IMG/VR virus record: IMGVR_UViG_3300025913_000099
Span: 1 to 26,663 of that record
Source of the DNA: a virus
Length of the DNA stretch: 26,663 bases
Direction: 5' to 3' (one strand)
Positions 6,158-25,588 of the stretch are shown piece by piece; position 1 is the stretch's first letter; each line of letters starts with the position of its first letter. The notes below the pieces were generated by a model, which searched no databases, was not told the DNA's origin, and worked only from the letters and a program-made list of their open reading frames with translations. A program made the translations under genes and the position numbers.

Positions 6158-6454
6158 ATGCACAACGAGTTCACCCCCACCCCCGACACCCTCGCCTACA
6201 CCCAGAAGGCCAGGAACGAACTGGCAAGGCGTGCGGCTACCCTGTGTTGGCGGATTGTGAACGAGCATCCCGACCCGAAAGGGTGGAAGGCCGAACTGGA
6301 GGCTGCTCCTGCTGAGCTGCGCGAATGCCTGCGCGAATACCTCTTGCAACGCTACAAGGCCCTGCAGGACCGCAGGCGCAGGGAGGCGGGCAAGCACAGT
6401 GCCGTGGCAGAACAGGAACTCGCCAAGATCGGCGAGATAGCGGGGCGGGAATGA
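6158..6454 (+). CDS. hypothetical helical protein, 98 aa
   Basis: Two ATGs occur at 6152 and 6158. GAGAGG abuts the first and is six bases from the second, so 6158 is chosen; 6152 would give an ATGA overlap with the zinc-ribbon stop. The protein (MHNEFTPTPDTLAYTQKARN...) has a Pro/Thr-rich N-terminus followed by helices with many Arg and Glu (a run QRYKALQDRRRREAGKH is strongly basic). Not recognised. It is joined to the methyltransferase by an ATGA overlap, so the two are probably made together. Confidence 0.6.
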   Translation: MHNEFTPTPDTLAYTQKARNELARRAATLCWRIVNEHPDPKGWKAELEAAPAELRECLREYLLQRYKALQDRRRREAGKHSAVAEQELAKIGEIAGRE

Positions 6455-7104
6455 CCCCGCTCAAAGAGGTCATCGGCAACGCCGAGCTGTGGCTGGGGGA
6501 TTGCCGCGAGATTCTGCCGCTGCTGCCGAAGGTGGATGCGGTGGTGACGGACCCGCCGTATGGAATGGGAAAGCTGCTCGACCGCACGCCGTGCGAAGAA
6601 GGCGCGACAAGGTGGGCCAAGCACTTCGGCGAAGGCGCTCCGAAGTGGGACGCCGAAGCGCCCATCGGGCTCATACACGACGTCATAAAAGCAGGGCCTC
6701 TAGCGATCGTATGGGGCGGTCAATTTTTCGAGTTGCCAACTGGCCGCTGCTGGCTCGCATGGAACAAGATCATTCGCAATTGGTCGTCCAGTGAAATGGA
6801 GCTTGCTTGGTCGAACATCGACAAGGCGAACAAGGCTTTCGATTATTCGCACGGTCAGCTTGCGACCGAAGGAAAGCACTATCACCCAACGCAGAAGCCT
6901 GTCCCTCTGATGGAGTGGTGCCTTTCACTTCTTCCCAACGATTCGGTAAACATCCTCGACCCCTTCATGGGCTCCGGCACGACTGGCGTCGCCTGTATGA
7001 ACCTCGGGCGCAAGTTCATCGGCATCGAGATCGAACCGAAATACTTCGACATCGCGTGTCGCAGAATCGAGGACGCGCAACGGCAGCAGCGCATGTTCGC
7101 TTGA
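6451..7104 (+). CDS. DNA methyltransferase (N6-adenine or N4-cytosine, beta group)
   Basis: A 217-residue enzyme with the catalytic DPPY motif near the N-terminus (34-37, within VVTDPPYGMG) and the AdoMet-binding motif DPFMGSGTTG at 170-179, followed by FIGIEIEPKYFDIA. The motif order (IV before I) is that of beta-group amino-methyltransferases; the HPTQKP box (145-150) is also typical. The start ATG overlaps the upstream stop as ATGA. No restriction endonuclease lies nearby, so it is an orphan enzyme, likely protecting phage DNA from host restriction or modifying promoter sites. Target recognition cannot be read. Bases about 6690-6860 are less GC-rich than the flanks, which hints at separate ancestry. 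Confidence 0.92.
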   Translation: MTPLKEVIGNAELWLGDCREILPLLPKVDAVVTDPPYGMGKLLDRTPCEEGATRWAKHFGEGAPKWDAEAPIGLIHDVIKAGPLAIVWGGQFFELPTGRCWLAWNKIIRNWSSSEMELAWSNIDKANKAFDYSHGQLATEGKHYHPTQKPVPLMEWCLSLLPNDSVNILDPFMGSGTTGVACMNLGRKFIGIEIEPKYFDIACRRIEDAQRQQRMFA

Positions 7105-12185: not shown

Positions 12186-12433
12186 TGAACGACCTGCGTA
12201 TCGAGGACAACGAGCAGCAGACTCCCTACGCAGGGTTGGAAACCGCTCCGGTGGCGTATGAACCGCTGCCGGAGCTGGTTGAGATTCGCAACATCGTCCT
12301 CTGGCTCAGCAAGCAGCAGTGGCCGCAGCCCGAGGAGCTGACATGGGAAGGGCTTGTGGCTGCGTATGACAAGGCCATGAACCCCGACCCGCTGCCGGAA
12401 CTGCCGAGCCGTGCCTACCGCGTCGGCCGGTGA
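12185..12433 (+). CDS. hypothetical protein, 82 aa
   Basis: The ATG at 12185 shares its A with the upstream TGA (TGATG). The product (MNDLRIEDNEQQTPYAGLET...) is acidic and Pro-rich in the first half, then has two helices (VEIRNIVLWLSKQQWPQPEE and LTWEGLVAAYDKAMNPD). It overlaps terL by 23 bases. Its position directly before terL and its small acidic-helical build would be compatible with a packaging accessory, but there is no motif to support one. The frame upstream to 12143 is Gly-rich shadow. Confidence 0.6.
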   Translation: MNDLRIEDNEQQTPYAGLETAPVAYEPLPELVEIRNIVLWLSKQQWPQPEELTWEGLVAAYDKAMNPDPLPELPSRAYRVGR

Positions 12434-13985
12434 GCTGACGCCACAACTGGCGGCGCAAGACCTGATCCGTCGCAAGCGCGGGCGCGAAAGCCTGATCGCC
12501 TTCGCCGAGCAGATCGACATTCCCGGCAAGCCCATCGTCGGGCAGGAAGACTTCTTCGGGGTCATCGAGACGCCGTTGGTGGCCCATCACAGGCTGCTTT
12601 GCACGGCACTGCAGGAGTGCATCGAGAAGCCGGGGGGCCGCCTGATGGTTCTGATGCCGCCTGGCTCGGCCAAGTCCACCTACATGAGCGTCGTCACGCC
12701 CGTCTGGGCGATGGGCCGCACGCCCCGGTATCAGGTCATCCTGACGAGCTACGGCGATGAGCTGGCGATCAAGCACGCCAAGCGTGCCCGGCAGATCGTG
12801 CAGAGCAAGCGGTATCAGGAAATCTTCGGGATCGACCTTGCGAGCGGGCAGACGGCTGCTGACCAGTGGCGTCTGACCAACGAATCCGAGTACATGGCGA
12901 GCGGCATCCTCGCGGGCCTGACCGGCAATCGAGGCGATCTGCTGCTGATCGATGACCCGCTCCGTGGGCGTGAGGCGGCCGAGTCACAGACGCAGCGTGA
13001 CAAGACGTGGGATGCCTACCAGGACGATGCCCGTAGCCGTCTGAAGCCCGGCGGCTCGCGGGTGATGACGCTGACCCGATGGCACGAGGACGACCCCGCA
13101 GGCCGTCTTCTGCCCAAGGAATGGGCGGGCGAGTCCGGCGACATCCTGTGCTCGGACGGCCATGTCTGGCGCGTAATCTGCCTGCCCGCCATCGCTGACC
13201 GGCAGGATGACCCGATCGGGCGCAAGCTCGGAGAGGGGCTGTGGCCCGAATGGTTCGGACAAGGCCATTGGGAGGAGTTCAAGTTCCCGCCCCGCTCGTG
13301 GCTCAGCCTGTACCAGCAGAAACCCACGTCCGAGCAGGGCACGTTCTTCAAGCGCGAGTGGTTCGAGCCGCAGCGGTATGAGATGGCGCCACCGCACAAC
13401 GAACTCTCGATCTACCTCACGGGTGACTTCGCCGTGACTGAGTCGGGCGGGGACTTCACCGAGCTGGGTGTCTGGGGCGTGGATCATCAGGACAATGTCT
13501 ATGCGCTGGACTGGTGGTTCGGTCAGAACACGGCGGACGTATGGATCAGGGAGTTGCTCAACCGCGTGGAGCGGTTCAAACCGCTATGGTTCGTGGGCGA
13601 GACGGGGCCGATCCGCCGTGCCGTGGAACCGTATCTGCTCAAGGAAATGACCGACCGTCGCCTGTTCGTGGCCTGCGAATGGTTGCCTCATGGGACGGCG
13701 AACAAGGAGGCGAATGCCCGCAGCTTCCAGGCCCTCGCCAGCGTCGGCAAGGTCCGGTTCCCCAGAACCGCATGGGCCGAGCACGTCATCGACCAGCTGC
13801 TGCGTTTCCCGAGCGGACGCCATGACGATGCGGTGGATGCGTGCAGCCTGTTCGGACGCATGCTCGAAAAGACGTGGGGCGGGCCGAAGCCGGTAGACAA
13901 GAAGCCGTTGGACTGGGACCGTCTTGCGACTACAATCAGTATCGCGGACTTTGAGCCGAATGACGGATTCAGGCCCTATGCGTAG
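12411..13985 (+). CDS. terL: terminase large subunit
   Basis: A 524-residue packaging motor. The ATPase half shows a Walker A-like PPGSAKST (83-90), Walker B LLLIDD (177-182) and the coupling region MTLTRWHEDDPAGRL (219-233). The nuclease half shows a first acidic strand TGDFAVTESGGDFTELG (338-354, D339) and the distal HDDAVDA (471-477) of the RNase H-like fold. It cuts concatemeric DNA and drives it through the portal. The start is GTG 12411, inside the preceding gene; no good Shine-Dalgarno is present and the next Met is far inside, so coupling is assumed. Confidence 0.93.
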   Translation: MPTASAGELTPQLAAQDLIRRKRGRESLIAFAEQIDIPGKPIVGQEDFFGVIETPLVAHHRLLCTALQECIEKPGGRLMVLMPPGSAKSTYMSVVTPVWAMGRTPRYQVILTSYGDELAIKHAKRARQIVQSKRYQEIFGIDLASGQTAADQWRLTNESEYMASGILAGLTGNRGDLLLIDDPLRGREAAESQTQRDKTWDAYQDDARSRLKPGGSRVMTLTRWHEDDPAGRLLPKEWAGESGDILCSDGHVWRVICLPAIADRQDDPIGRKLGEGLWPEWFGQGHWEEFKFPPRSWLSLYQQKPTSEQGTFFKREWFEPQRYEMAPPHNELSIYLTGDFAVTESGGDFTELGVWGVDHQDNVYALDWWFGQNTADVWIRELLNRVERFKPLWFVGETGPIRRAVEPYLLKEMTDRRLFVACEWLPHGTANKEANARSFQALASVGKVRFPRTAWAEHVIDQLLRFPSGRHDDAVDACSLFGRMLEKTWGGPKPVDKKPLDWDRLATTISIADFEPNDGFRPYA

Positions 13986-14223
13986 CTATGCGGATCGTCT
14001 TCCCGGTGAAATTGTTGCGGTGATGAATCCGCAGCAGCGCGTGAAATACAGCCTCGACATGGCCGACAGAGCTAATGGCTTTCTGATCGCAGAAAACCGC
14101 ATGCTCGAAGACGAGCGCAACGCGCTGCGGAAGCGAGTCATGCAATACAAAGGCACGATCAAGGCGCTCAACCGCTTGGTGAAGGCGCAGGACTTGGCAT
14201 TGCGGGCACGCCCCCATGGCTAA
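13978..14223 (+). CDS. small coiled-coil protein between terL and portal, 81 aa
   Basis: The ATG at 13978 overlaps the terL stop by eight bases; an in-frame ATG at 13960 is the alternative, and neither has a strong ribosome site. The protein (MRSYADRLPGEIVAVMNPQQ, then RVKYSLDMADRANGFLIAEN...) is predicted helical with a charged coil (MLEDERNALRKRVMQYKGTI). It overlaps the portal start by eight bases. A coil of this type between terL and portal could be a portal or packaging accessory; the function is not known. Confidence 0.6.
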   Translation: MRSYADRLPGEIVAVMNPQQRVKYSLDMADRANGFLIAENRMLEDERNALRKRVMQYKGTIKALNRLVKAQDLALRARPHG

Positions 14224-16531
14224 GCGCCAGCGTTATTCCTCGTCCAAGCCATCCGCCTCTCAGGATGCGATCGACACGCGCGAGCGTTGGCTGAAGCGCC
14301 TGAAAGATGAGATGGAAGCGCACAAGGACTGGCGCGACGAGGCCATCCGCGCCGAGGCCGCGTACTACGCCGACCGCTCCACGAACGGGCAGCAGCAGAA
14401 AACCCCGATCGAGTCCTACCCGCTTTTCCCCTCCACCATCAAGGTCATTCACGGGCGCGTGTTCTCGCAGCCGCCTAAGCCTGATGTGCGAAAGAGGTAT
14501 GCCGATGACATCACCGCTCAACAAGGCATGGGACCCGACGCTGTATCGGGAGGCGCAGCAGCTACGACTGGAGGAGCACCAGCGCAGCCGGGCTTGGTGG
14601 CGCCAATGGCTCCGCCAGCAGGAGCAGGACCAAATCAGCCGCCTCCAGCGCCAGGCGGAGCGGGCGGTGCACAACCTGCTCAGCCGGTTCAAACGGTAGA
14701 CGACAACAAGATCGCGCTCTGTCTCGAGCGTGGCATCGGTTACACGATCGACACGTCGCAGTGGGACCTCAACATGCACATGTCCGTCAACGATTTCCTC
14801 GTGACGGCGTGTGGTGTGGGCAAGATCGAAATGGAGACGGAGACGGAGATGCAGCCCGTCACCAACCCGCTCACGGGCCAGCCGGTCCTGACGCACAAGG
14901 AAACGGGTGAACCCGCGCCGCTTGGCATGGACGGATCGCCGATGATCCCGCCCGAGATGGCGGATCAGTTCGAACCTGCCATGCAGCAGGTCATCGTGGA
15001 TCAGACGACGAACTATCGTCACTTCTCATGGAGCCAATACCACTGGGAGCCGCGTCAGAACTGGGCCCAGGTGGGCTGGGAGGCGTTCGACCACTGGATG
15101 ACGCGCCGTGACATCGAGGCGCGGTTCAACGTTGATCTCAAGACCGAAGGTTCCGGCAACGATTCGAGCGATGCTGGCGTGACCGTGGGCGGTAATCCGC
15201 GCAAGCCACAGAGCGCGAAGTACAAGGACCAGTTCTGCGTCCACGAAATATGGGATCGCACGGACCCGAAGAACAAGCAGCGCCTCTTCATCTGCGAGGA
15301 ATACGACGGCGTGCTGTTGCAGGAGCCGGACCCGCTCGGCCTCAAGGATTTCTTCCCGAATCCCATGCCGATGTTCCTGAACCTGCGTGGTGATGATCTC
15401 GTGCCGATGCCGGACTACACGTACTGCGAAATGCTGTTCAAGCAGTGCAACGAGTTGTCCAACCGCATCAGCATGATCATCAAGACGATCAAGGAAGTCG
15501 GCTTCTACGATGCGAGCGTGCCTGAGCTACAGAGCGCACGCGGCAATCCACCGGATGGCACGTACATCCCGATTGCCGGCCTCGCGCAGCGCATCGCGCA
15601 GGCGGGCGGTAAGGCAGATGGCACGATCAACTCCGTGCTGGCGCGCTGGGACAACCAGACTGCGGTGGCGGTGATTCAGGAGCTGCTGAACCTCGTTGAG
15701 GTGTTCAAGCAGCGTATCTACGAAATCTATGGCGTGCCGGACATCATCCGGGGCGCATCGAATCCGAACGAAACCGCGACCGCGCAGAGCATCAAAGCGC
15801 AGTGGGCGGATGTGCGGATCGGCGAGAAGGTTCGTACCGTTGCGCTCTATTGCCGCGACGTGTTCCGCATCCAGTCCGAGCTGATGGCCGAGAAGTTCCA
15901 GCCCGAGATTCTGGAGAAGATGACCGGAATACAGCTCAATGATCTCGAAATCGGCGTACTACGGAGTGACTACGGCCGTTGCTATGCGATCGATGTGGAG
16001 TCCGATAGCACGGTCATTCAGGACGAGGCGGCTGCACAAGAGCAGACGATGAACTTCGTCAATACCATGATTGCCGTGGCCGAGAAGTTGCTGCCGAGCG
16101 TGCAGAGCAACATGCTCCCAGCCGATCTTGCCAAGGAAATCCTCCTGACCACGGCAGGTGCATTCAAGAAAGGTCGCCAGCTCGAACAGACGATCAACAA
16201 CCTGCCCGGCACGAGTGCTCAGCTCGGCAAGCAGCAGACGCAGATTCAGCAGCTGCAGCAGCAGCTACAGGCTGCCGATGCGAACATGAAGGAAATGCAG
16301 AAGCAGCTGACCACGTACAACGGCCAGAAGGAAGCTCGCGCCAACGCCGAGACGGTGAGCAAGGTGCAGAAAACCGCCATCGACGGGCAGAAGACGCAGG
16401 CCGACACCGAACACACGCAGGTCCTGACCGCTGCCGAGGCGCAGAACATCCGCGAGTCCGCCATGCGGCCGGTGCCAATTCCTGACCCGCATCACAACGT
16501 GGTGCCGATGAAACCGCAGGGGGCTGCATGA
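14216..16531 (+). CDS. portal protein, podovirus type
   Basis: A 771-residue portal, the twelve-fold ring at the capsid vertex through which DNA passes. Typical pieces are the N-terminal helix with WLKRLKDEMEAHKDWRDEAI, the segment HGRVFSQPPKPDVRKR (79-94), a conserved region YRHFSWSQYHWEPRQNWAQV (about 275-294) ahead of AFDHWMTRRDIEARF, LRGDDLVPMPDY and a helix region GVPDIIRGASNPNETATAQS. The C-terminus is a long Gln-rich coil (residues about 660-730). Residues about 99-160 are a Pro/Ala/Gly-rich insertion that interrupts the usual continuity; the overlapping frame in this insertion is annotated separately. The start ATG is inside the preceding gene with a weak ribosome site. Confidence 0.9.
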   Translation: MAKRQRYSSSKPSASQDAIDTRERWLKRLKDEMEAHKDWRDEAIRAEAAYYADRSTNGQQQKTPIESYPLFPSTIKVIHGRVFSQPPKPDVRKRYADDITAQQGMGPDAVSGGAAATTGGAPAQPGLVAPMAPPAGAGPNQPPPAPGGAGGAQPAQPVQTVDDNKIALCLERGIGYTIDTSQWDLNMHMSVNDFLVTACGVGKIEMETETEMQPVTNPLTGQPVLTHKETGEPAPLGMDGSPMIPPEMADQFEPAMQQVIVDQTTNYRHFSWSQYHWEPRQNWAQVGWEAFDHWMTRRDIEARFNVDLKTEGSGNDSSDAGVTVGGNPRKPQSAKYKDQFCVHEIWDRTDPKNKQRLFICEEYDGVLLQEPDPLGLKDFFPNPMPMFLNLRGDDLVPMPDYTYCEMLFKQCNELSNRISMIIKTIKEVGFYDASVPELQSARGNPPDGTYIPIAGLAQRIAQAGGKADGTINSVLARWDNQTAVAVIQELLNLVEVFKQRIYEIYGVPDIIRGASNPNETATAQSIKAQWADVRIGEKVRTVALYCRDVFRIQSELMAEKFQPEILEKMTGIQLNDLEIGVLRSDYGRCYAIDVESDSTVIQDEAAAQEQTMNFVNTMIAVAEKLLPSVQSNMLPADLAKEILLTTAGAFKKGRQLEQTINNLPGTSAQLGKQQTQIQQLQQQLQAADANMKEMQKQLTTYNGQKEARANAETVSKVQKTAIDGQKTQADTEHTQVLTAAEAQNIRESAMRPVPIPDPHHNVVPMKPQGAA
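14505..14699 (+). CDS. possible overprinted protein inside the portal gene, 64 aa
   Basis: In the +1 frame relative to the portal, ATG 14505 has AAAGAGG (14491-14497) at a spacing of seven bases and runs 64 codons to TAG 14697-14699. The product begins MTSPLNKAWDPTLYREAQQL and ends LLSRFKR; it is an amphipathic, Trp/Arg/Gln-rich helix protein with a natural amino-acid mix. The portal frame over the same bases is low-complexity Pro/Ala/Gly, and the nested frame starts and stops almost exactly at the edges of that insertion. A chance reading of GC-rich repeats is the alternative. Confidence 0.4.
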   Translation: MTSPLNKAWDPTLYREAQQLRLEEHQRSRAWWRQWLRQQEQDQISRLQRQAERAVHNLLSRFKR

Positions 16532-22988: not shown

Positions 22989-23094
22989 ACAGTCCCGGCG
23001 CGAACAAGAGGAACCACGCCCCGACCATGAAGCCAAGCCGCTTCCACGGTGACCATAGTAATTCGTCCGGCAATTCGAGGGGATGACGCTTCAT
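22930..23094 (-). CDS. possible antisense-strand membrane protein, 54 aa
   Basis: On the minus strand the only sizeable gap of the structural operon (22989-23092) reads as a clean protein: MKRHPLELPDELLWSPWKRL, then GFMVGAWFLLFAPGLFMVIL, then a second hydrophobic run ending CLRAFVLRW. It has a charged amphipathic head with PWKR before one long or two short membrane helices, a very natural membrane-protein pattern. Against it are the orientation opposite to every neighbour, only a weak TAGG ribosome site, and a tail antisense to the end of the 671-residue gene. The plus strand offers only a 33-residue Asn/Ser/His frame (22985-23086). Confidence 0.35.
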   Translation of the reverse strand: MKRHPLELPDELLWSPWKRLGFMVGAWFLLFAPGLFMVILLWLVLCLRAFVLRW

Positions 23095-23494
23095 GCTCTA
23101 CGCCTACCAGTGCAGTTGCGGATACGAGACGGAAGCCTACAACAAGATGGCCGACCGGCACACGCTTGCGCCCGTTTGTGGTAAAAACGCAACGCACGGG
23201 CAGATGACGATCAGGCTGACCGCGCCAATGTTCACGATCGCGGCGGACTGCGCCTACAAGTGCCCGCTGACGAATCAGGTGGTCACGAGCCACCGGCAGC
23301 GCCAGAACATCATGCGCGAGCGGAATGTGGTGGATGCAAGGGACTTCACCACGAACGAGGCGGTCCAGAAAGGGTTCGCCAAGGCTGAGAAAGAACAGGA
23401 GAAGGACCGGGCATTGATCCGGGACCTCCAGAAGGACTTGAACACGGGCCGGGATCGCCCTTTCACACCGAACGATCTTCTGGGATCACTCTAA
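23093..23494 (+). CDS. zinc-ribbon protein ahead of the scaffold gene, 133 aa
   Basis: The ATG at 23093 has GAGGGGA nine bases upstream. The N-terminus (MLYAYQCSCGYETEAYNKMA) with C7-x-C9 and C29-G resembles the FmdB-like zinc ribbon that often precedes head genes in podoviruses; two further cysteines lie at 53 and 57. The C-terminal half is a charged helix (QKGFAKAEKEQEKDRALIRD). A role in assembly is inferred from location. The next start follows the TAA immediately. Confidence 0.7.
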   Translation: MLYAYQCSCGYETEAYNKMADRHTLAPVCGKNATHGQMTIRLTAPMFTIAADCAYKCPLTNQVVTSHRQRQNIMRERNVVDARDFTTNEAVQKGFAKAEKEQEKDRALIRDLQKDLNTGRDRPFTPNDLLGSL

Positions 23495-24619
23495 ATGAGC
23501 GACACGGCCCCCACGATGCGCGAAGTCATCGCAAGGACCGACGCCGAGCTTTCGTCCAAAGCCTCGGAATCGGGTTCTGCGAAAGAAAAACCCGAAAGTG
23601 TTTCACGTGAAACAAAGCCAGCCAAGTCCGAAACCGCCACGACCACGACCGTCACTGATGGCGCTGCGGCGGACAACGATGATCCGCTCAACGGCTGGAA
23701 CGAGGCCCCGGCGTGGGCCAAGCGGTGGAGCAAGGAAGGCCAGCGCGCGCTCCGCACCTGGGCGACCGACCCCAACTCGGGCGAGCACTGGAAGCACGCC
23801 GGTAACGAGCTGAACAAGCTCTATACCGACTGGGGCAAACAGGCGAACGAGGTGGGACAGCTTCGCCAGTTCGCGCAGGGCTACGCCCCGATCCACGACA
23901 CGCTGCAGCAGGCGCGGCAGGTGTGGGAAATGCAGGGAATGACCCTGCAGCAGGGCCTCGCCCAGCAGATGGCTGTGGCGCAGGCGCTTGCCCGCGACCC
24001 CGATCAGACGCTGGCATGGCTCGCCAGCATCTACAAGCCCAAGGATGCGGGGAAGTTCATTCAGGCCATCGCGCAGGCGACCGGCGCCGACCTCAACGCA
24101 GCGGTTCAGTCCGCCCCGTATGTCGATCCGACCGTTACGCAGATGGTGAATCCGTTGCTGCAACGGCTGCAGGGGCTCGAACAGCACCTGATGGGCCAGC
24201 AGCAGCAGCAGACGCAAGCGCAACAGCAGTACGTAGTGCAGCAGATACAGGCTTTCGAGAATGCCGTAGACGACACCGGCCAACCGAAGCACCCATATCT
24301 GCGTGATCCCGAAGTCTTCCAGCTGATGCTGTTCGCGATGAATAGCGGACAGACGCCGCGTGATCTTGCCGCCGCCTATGAGTGGGCCACGGCACGTCAC
24401 CTCCCGGCGATTCAGAAGAAGGCCGAGGACGCGCAGCGAAAGGCCCTTCAGGCGGCAGCCACGACGACGGAAACCTCCCAGCAAGCCAAGGTAGCAAGCA
24501 ACAACCTCCAAGGCTCGGCACAAGGGAAGGCGCGGAGGAATCCGCCCCCGAACTCCATTCGCGATGCAATCCGCGCGACGGCCAAAGCCAAGGGGGAAAC
24601 CATCCCCACGACTTGGTAA
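23495..24619 (+). CDS. scaffolding protein candidate, 374 aa
   Basis: It lies directly before the major capsid gene. The protein has a disordered Ser/Lys/Thr/Glu head (about 20-60), a Trp-bearing segment EAPAWAKRWSKEGQRALRTW (70-89), a long helical middle with Gln-rich coil (MGQQQQQTQAQQQYVVQQIQ) and a basic Pro/Asn-rich tail (GKARRNPPPNSIRDAIRA). Disorder, Gln coils, a basic C-terminus and placement before the capsid are the marks of phage scaffolds, which bind coat protein through their ends and leave the finished head. The parS-like palindrome lies in its disordered head. Confidence 0.75.
   Translation: MSDTAPTMREVIARTDAELSSKASESGSAKEKPESVSRETKPAKSETATTTTVTDGAAADNDDPLNGWNEAPAWAKRWSKEGQRALRTWATDPNSGEHWKHAGNELNKLYTDWGKQANEVGQLRQFAQGYAPIHDTLQQARQVWEMQGMTLQQGLAQQMAVAQALARDPDQTLAWLASIYKPKDAGKFIQAIAQATGADLNAAVQSAPYVDPTVTQMVNPLLQRLQGLEQHLMGQQQQQTQAQQQYVVQQIQAFENAVDDTGQPKHPYLRDPEVFQLMLFAMNSGQTPRDLAAAYEWATARHLPAIQKKAEDAQRKALQAAATTTETSQQAKVASNNLQGSAQGKARRNPPPNSIRDAIRATAKAKGETIPTTW
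23599..23614. promoter_or_regulatory. parS: perfect parS-type site (ParB binding)
   Basis: The 16 bases TGTTTCACGTGAAACA form a perfect palindrome equal to the consensus bacterial chromosomal parS, the loading site of the ParB CTPase clamp. It lies in codons 35-40 of the scaffold gene. Those six codons (AGT GTT TCA CGT GAA ACA) all end in A or T, in a gene that otherwise favours G/C at the third position, which suggests selection on the DNA. No ParA or ParB gene is in this window, so the host protein would be the partner. Confidence 0.75.
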
Positions 24620-24634
24620 CAGGAGTTTTTCATC

Positions 24635-25588
24635 ATGGCTTACGCTGACCTCTCCGAGTTCGTCGTAGCCTCCGCGCGCGCGTGGAGTCCGACGTTCTTC
24701 GACAACGTCACTACGAACAATGCAATGCTCAACCGGCTCATGAAGAAGGGCCGGATCGTCACGGTGGACGGTGGCCGCACGATCGATGAGGCCCTCATCT
24801 ATCCCACGAACCCGAACCAGAGCTACAAGTGGTACACGGGTTACGACAGCTTCACCCCGCCCACCACGTCCGAAGTTCTCGACGCCGCCGAGTATCAGTG
24901 GAAGCAGCTCGCAGGCTTCATCTCGATCTCGGGCATCGAGAAAATCTACAACTCGGGCGAGGCGAAGCGGTACGACTACGTCGAAGCCCGCATGGCGCAG
25001 TTGCAGGCGCTCATGAAGAATGCCGTCGCAACATCCATCTACTCGGACGGTACGGGTTCGGGCGGACGTGAGCTCGGCGGCCTGAAGCTCCTGATCGCGG
25101 ACGATCCGACGACCTCGACCACGGTCGGCGGCATCAATCAGTCCACGTTCTCGTTCTGGCGCAACAAGACCACGGGTGACGTGACGATCGATGGCACCAC
25201 GATCCAGAGCGTCATGAACGGGCTTTACCTCGACTGCATCCGTGGCTCGGACGTGCCGGACCTGATCCTGTTCGACAAGAACTTCTACACGTTCTTCCTC
25301 GGCACCTTGCAGCCGTTGCAGCGCTTCATGGATTCGGAGCTGGCGGACCTTGGATTCCAGACGCTGAAGTATCAGTCGGCGGATGTGATCTTCGATCCGA
25401 ACTGCAACACCAACCACGGCTATTTCGTGAACTCCGACACGATCAAGCTGAAGTGCGCGCCGAACCGTCGTTTCAACGTCGGCGAAGTCCGTACGATTCA
25501 GAACGCCGACTACGAGGTGATCCCGTGCCTCTTCGCCGGTAACTTCACCTGCAACGCGCGCTTCCTCAACGGCGTGATGTATACCTGA
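24635..25588 (+). CDS. major capsid protein
   Basis: A 317-residue protein (MAYADLSEFVVASARAWSPT...) with the layout of a HK97-fold major capsid protein: an N-terminal arm with MLNRLMKKGRIVTVDGGRTI, a strand-rich body with WYTGYDSFTPPTTSEVLDAA, a spine helix around RMAQLQALMKNAVATSIYSD, a Gly-rich loop, and a domain with LILFDKNFYTFFLGTLQPLQ and a beta-rich C-terminus (AGNFTCNARFLNGVMYT). AGGAG lies nine bases upstream, among the best ribosome sites in the module, and a strong terminator follows, both as expected for the most abundant structural protein. It follows the scaffold gene. Confidence 0.88.
   Translation: MAYADLSEFVVASARAWSPTFFDNVTTNNAMLNRLMKKGRIVTVDGGRTIDEALIYPTNPNQSYKWYTGYDSFTPPTTSEVLDAAEYQWKQLAGFISISGIEKIYNSGEAKRYDYVEARMAQLQALMKNAVATSIYSDGTGSGGRELGGLKLLIADDPTTSTTVGGINQSTFSFWRNKTTGDVTIDGTTIQSVMNGLYLDCIRGSDVPDLILFDKNFYTFFLGTLQPLQRFMDSELADLGFQTLKYQSADVIFDPNCNTNHGYFVNSDTIKLKCAPNRRFNVGEVRTIQNADYEVIPCLFAGNFTCNARFLNGVMYT

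Follow-up and report, generated by a model that had tools for sequence, protein, structure and literature searches.

Our analysis identifies a chromosomal-type parS sequence inside a late structural gene of a virus, and we consider it quite likely, from the pattern of substitutions among related phages, that this 16-mer is a genuine parS, maintained by selection at the DNA level and serving as a docking site for the chromosomal ParB of the host. Few of the systems with which bacteria handle their DNA are as conserved as ParB-parS. The data suggest that a small soil-type lineage of phages in which partition genes were not detected recruits host ParB, and many other phages probably do likewise. 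Phages with their own parABS and parasitism of parS by SGI1 are already known. The open-access literature searched (subscription papers lay outside the search) held no report of a partition-gene-free phage with a chromosomal-type parS. The author of the earlier note on this DNA knew of no described phage system with such a site hidden in a head gene.

The window, i.e. the whole stretch of DNA analysed here, is an entire IMG/VR record, a virus fragment of 26,663 bases that constitutes an incomplete contig. Its relevant features are the following:

12411-13985, + strand: terminase large subunit (PHROG 38, E 3e-94)
14216-16531, + strand: portal protein (PHROG 12082, E 6e-118)
23093-23494, + strand: small cysteine-containing ORF preceding the scaffold, recognized by BLASTP synteny and kept in L133 and L218
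23495-24619, + strand: scaffold-like ORF of 374 aa with the site in codons 35-40, preceding the capsid gene, an arrangement shared with Mx8-type phages
23599-23614, no strand: parS-type site TGTTTCACGTGAAACA, a perfect palindrome, exact match and single in the window
24635-25588, + strand: major capsid protein (PHROG 9953, E 6e-69)

As the earlier note had claimed, the sequence at 23599-23614 agrees with the palindromic consensus TGTTNCACGTGAAACA in 16 of 16 bases; no second parS-like match was found in the window when up to three mismatches were allowed, and TGTTTCACGTGAAACA is the sole perfect 16-bp palindrome of the 26.7-kb contig. Among chromosomal parS sites, TGTTNCACGTGAAACA is the form of the B. 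subtilis/Caulobacter/Burkholderia type and TGTTCCACGTGGAACA that of the Pseudomonas type (PMC7022226, PMC5450999). The expectation of some 6 occurrences per million windows was reproduced as a naive estimate (26,663/4^16 = about 6e-6), and a recount bore out the unusual codon choice under the site, since codons 35-40 (AGT GTT TCA CGT GAA ACA, encoding S-V-S-R-E-T) all have A/T as third base, six out of six, in a gene whose overall GC3 is 0.77.

The putative scaffold identity of ORF 23495-24619 is proposed by analogy, since it immediately precedes the capsid gene, like p47 in Mx8. The ORF had no PHROG match, and its protein had no relatives among named phages and plasmids; homologues were detected in L133, L003, L218, L134, L135, L219, L221 and L222. 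Fifteen bases separate its end from the capsid gene, and both portal and terminase lie upstream of it. The capsid protein is 35-39% identical to those of the Myxococcus phages Mx8 and Mx9, the Stenotrophomonas phage BUCT555 and the Bradyrhizobium phage ppBjS10J-1, and the window shares with podoviruses of the Mx8/Mx9/BUCT555 type (capsid 36-37% identical) the portal-scaffold-capsid gene order. In contrast to the window, Mx8, Mx9 and ppBjS10J-1 carry no parS, and the several Pseudomonas-type sites of BUCT555 lie in other parts of its genome. AlphaFold returned a helical model of the scaffold-like protein at low confidence (mean pLDDT only 53), with pLDDT below 50 for residues 19-71 and no secondary structure for residues 26-72; this low-confidence model, unstructured over approximately residues 26-72, backs the idea that the site occupies a predicted disordered part of the protein.

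The strongest evidence for a functional site comes from one lineage of five phages, all of which carry it in the same disordered N-terminal tail of the scaffold-like gene, in four versions: TGTTTCACGTGAAACA, TGTTCCACGTGAAACA, TGTTTCACGTGGAACA and TGTTCCACGTGGAACA. L133 (the L002 contig) and L003, close relatives with scaffold proteins 77-79% identical, have TGTTCCACGTGAAACA; L218 and L134, two further relatives (capsid 65-67% and scaffold 39-40% identical), have TGTTTCACGTGGAACA and TGTTCCACGTGGAACA, respectively. In all five phages the capsid gene starts 1027-1054 bases downstream of the start of the site. The versions differ at positions 5 and 12 only, always by transitions: position 5 is T or C, position 12 is A or G, and each of the four possible pairings is present. 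The other 14 bases are invariant. In a capsid tree the site carriers group together, and at least three substitutions within the site are required, all of them at positions 5/12. The peptides encoded across the lineage are VSRET, VPRET, VSRGT and VPRGT; hence each of the three changes replaces an amino acid (S/P, E/G) and every wobble base is fixed. Because the peptide changes while the wobble bases stay, the DNA of the site and not the encoded peptide is, as read from these alignments, under selection. Between the two sub-lineages no more than 46% of the residues in common keep their codon, yet within the N-terminal 220 nt no 16-mer matches better than the site. The conservation argument as a whole draws on five genomes in two sub-lineages, with some three substitutions, and the flanks of the site are partly conserved between the sub-lineages.

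The two variable positions are those at which ParB is permissive. In SPR measurements on a canonical chromosomal parS, symmetrical changes abolished ParB binding except at the outermost pair 1-16 and for the 5-12 transition, and T5C-A12G is the exact difference of the Pseudomonas parS from the common form (PMC5450999). The phage variation is thus confined to positions tolerated by ParB. The earlier note had held that close relatives encoding the same peptide with palindrome-breaking codons would speak against a parS; the opposite was seen, namely an altered peptide and DNA kept except at ParB-tolerated positions. In the next lineages out (L135, L219, L221 and L222) the site is absent from the homologous scaffold gene; phages of this type can therefore do without parS. 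A search of genome contigs gave no match when based on A4, a narrow alignment of capsid proteins; with alignment A3 it recovered 66 prophages at 33-44% identity, mostly in alphaproteobacteria, none of which contained the 14-bp core.

Partition genes were sought elsewhere in the genome, as the earlier note had proposed. L218 sits in G001 (L240), a record of 36,025 bases. Its two ends share an identical overlap of 126 bases, and G001 is therefore a complete, circularly assembled genome. Its positions 1-132 comprise a short fold-back followed by the repeat of the last 126 bases of the record, which IMG/VR classes as linear. G001 has one parS site and encodes a DnaB-type helicase, an SSB, an ERF recombinase and a C5 methyltransferase. 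The latter (L240:9432-10112, PF00145) is unrelated to the DNA methyltransferase (PHROG 67) at 6325-7104 of the window. ParB_N had no match in the window, in the complete G001 or in G002, G004 and G005, and AAA_31, the model used for ParA, had none in G000 and G001; Phage_integrase, Resolvase and HTH_3 were likewise without a match in G000/G001, and control genomes were matched by the same models. Neither an integrating temperate phage nor a phage-plasmid with its own parABS of the P1 or RedRock type is thus indicated, the window being incomplete so that par genes could lie in the missing part of its genome. Since ParB, ParA and integrase were not detected in the complete relative, the expected natural partner of the phage parS would be the chromosomal ParB of the host.

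A census of viral sequences indicated that such sites extend well beyond this lineage. The palindromic T-form and C-form of parS each gave at least 120 matches in 2.9 million viral contigs, in which composition-matched control palindromes gave 5 and 7; these figures are minimum counts, to be read as a lead and not as a complete survey, and host DNA may be present in some of the viral contigs. Using HMMs built for the analysis, a terminase or portal gene was detected in 43 of 120 T-form loci among the matches listed, and 40 of 44 long records from the matches listed had no ParB_N match. The sites often neighbour terminase genes, and usually no ParB accompanies them. A parS hidden in a head gene is particular to the lineage of the window, the sites of other phages being often intergenic and next to terL.

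In thirteen loci a perfect parS precedes terL by 18-151 bp (L021, L029, L031, L044, L068, L085, L090, L095, L099, L103, L113, L121 and L122). They belong to marine-type phages with a terminase 55-64% like that of the Pelagibacter phages HTVC027P and HTVC023P, to which the lineage around L031 is related; in L099 a T-form (334) and a C-form (310) lie side by side. Another group of phages has up to five perfect parS copies clustered like a centromere in the roughly 1.5 kb that precede terL (L019:2657-3444; L046:10535-11462; also L055, L077 and L100), and in L046 and L077 one copy falls within the first codons of terL. The match TGTTCCACGTGAAACG at L198:147-162 was left uncounted, as it is inside a portal gene where VPRET belongs to a conserved portal stretch and may be a coincidence.

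Two cultured phages carry such sites. The Pelagibacter phage HTVC027P (MN698241.1) has CGTTTCACGTGAAACA at 16412-16427, between gp31 and gp32 in the intergenic region separating terS and terL; the parS core is absent from HTVC023P. The Stenotrophomonas phage BUCT555 (L127, MW291508.1) has five sites clustered across the record junction, at 37884, 39380, 78, 472 and 2370: three are exact GTTCCACGTGGAAC cores, the other two near copies. ParB_N had no match in either HTVC027P or BUCT555. On balance, we favour the view that orphan chromosomal-type parS sites reflect a common, undescribed strategy by which several unrelated groups of phages devoid of partition genes recruit the host ParB clamp and, via it, ParA/SMC, predominantly at the terminase region but within the scaffold gene in the lineage of the window.

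Several other readings of the 16-mer have to be weighed. That it is an accident of encoding V-x-R-x-T has a practically negligible probability: V, R and T are indeed common to all five proteins, but the radical S/P and E/G changes are accompanied by no wobble change in rare codons, and given the peptide SVSRET and the codon usage of the window phage the exact 16-mer is expected with P ~1e-6 only. When the codons of the late genes were resampled 3000 times (33 Mb), no parS arose, even in degenerate form. The DNA of Mx8-type phages and prophages, approximately 2.1 Mb, contains the degenerate 16-mer three times, at three loci to which the window and L003 are to be added, always in the scaffold-like gene, against a mean of 0.008 occurrences for permuted palindromes (n=119). 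Chance, already judged unlikely in the earlier note, is effectively excluded because relatives conserve the site. The substitution pattern within the site led us to drop the peptide-constraint reading, and with it an RNA hairpin in the scaffold mRNA acting on translation, which we regard as extremely improbable. A perfect palindrome would fold as RNA too, and the 5-12 pair is kept in the window (U-A), L134 (C-G) and L218 (U-G), but it is broken in L133 and L003 (C-A), and a hairpin has no need for 14 other bases invariant in sequence. It is also highly improbable that the site is an operator for another palindrome-binding protein, of phage or host, with parS-like specificity; the several GTTCCACGTGGAAC sites of BUCT555 are readable as operators, yet the full 16-bp chromosomal consensus, the variation at ParB-tolerated positions only, the intragenic location and the lack of an HTH_3 repressor in G000/G001 all oppose it.

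Two further readings accept ParB as the ligand. ParB clamps spreading from the site might repress or time the late head genes: the site lies within the late operon, and P. aeruginosa ParB represses promoters adjoining parS3/parS4 (PMC7022226). Here, however, the site is intragenic, about 1 kb ahead of the capsid gene and not at a promoter, and no regulated gene is common to phages whose sites lie elsewhere, e.g. upstream of terL; because the gene context differs between phages, we hold such local silencing to be improbable. The alternative of a decoy, in which replicated parS-bearing genomes draw ParB (and SMC) away from the host chromosome and arrest its segregation, involves the same docking step for another purpose; we rank titration second, after positioning or segregation, and judge it rather unlikely. 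A single strong site per genome might suffice at high copy number, and a lytic life is plausible for G001 because ParA, ParB and integrase were not detected in this complete genome, but several sites would serve a decoy better and the lineage keeps one.

The preferred reading, a parS that docks host ParB, can be set against known systems. With chromosomal ParABS the phages share the identical 16-bp palindrome and the natural variants at positions 5/12; the phage site differs in being a single copy, in a structural gene, on a replicon without detected par genes. P1 is an extrachromosomal prophage with its own parABS. The same holds for the extrachromosomal prophages RedRock and Miko (PMC7157519). 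These prophages likewise use ParB-parS, with their own ParA and ParB and their own repeated parS, whereas the lineage of the window has no detected ParA/ParB and its site is the host consensus. A further parallel is SGI1, whose parS mimics imitate the sites of the IncC plasmid and which is stabilized by the plasmid's ParABS (PMC10954446). Like SGI1, the phage of the window is a mobile element bearing another replicon's parS, of foreign type, with no matching par genes found. The ParB exploited by SGI1 is plasmid-encoded, in contrast to the chromosomal-type site described here, and its binding was established experimentally, whereas we infer that of the phage site.

We propose that dimers of host ParB, the assumed partner, would load at the parS site on phage DNA, close as CTP-bound clamps and, as expected from known ParB biochemistry, slide several kb along it, thereby tying copies of the phage genome to host ParA and SMC. 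The benefit that we tentatively put foremost, by analogy with SGI1 and plasmid ParABS, is that the unintegrated phage genome would be positioned, or segregated, together with the chromosome of the host. The scaffold protein, with its disordered N-terminal tail, may offer a place where DNA can be constrained at little protein cost.

If host ParB does load on phage DNA, these phages would borrow the segregation and condensin-loading machinery of the cell for 16 bp and no protein. This would offer a mechanism for carrier states of integrase-free phages and possibly a decoy attack on host chromosome segregation, and the host ParB type would become predictable from the phage sequence. The existence of cultured parS-bearing phages, HTVC027P and BUCT555, makes the question accessible to experiment.
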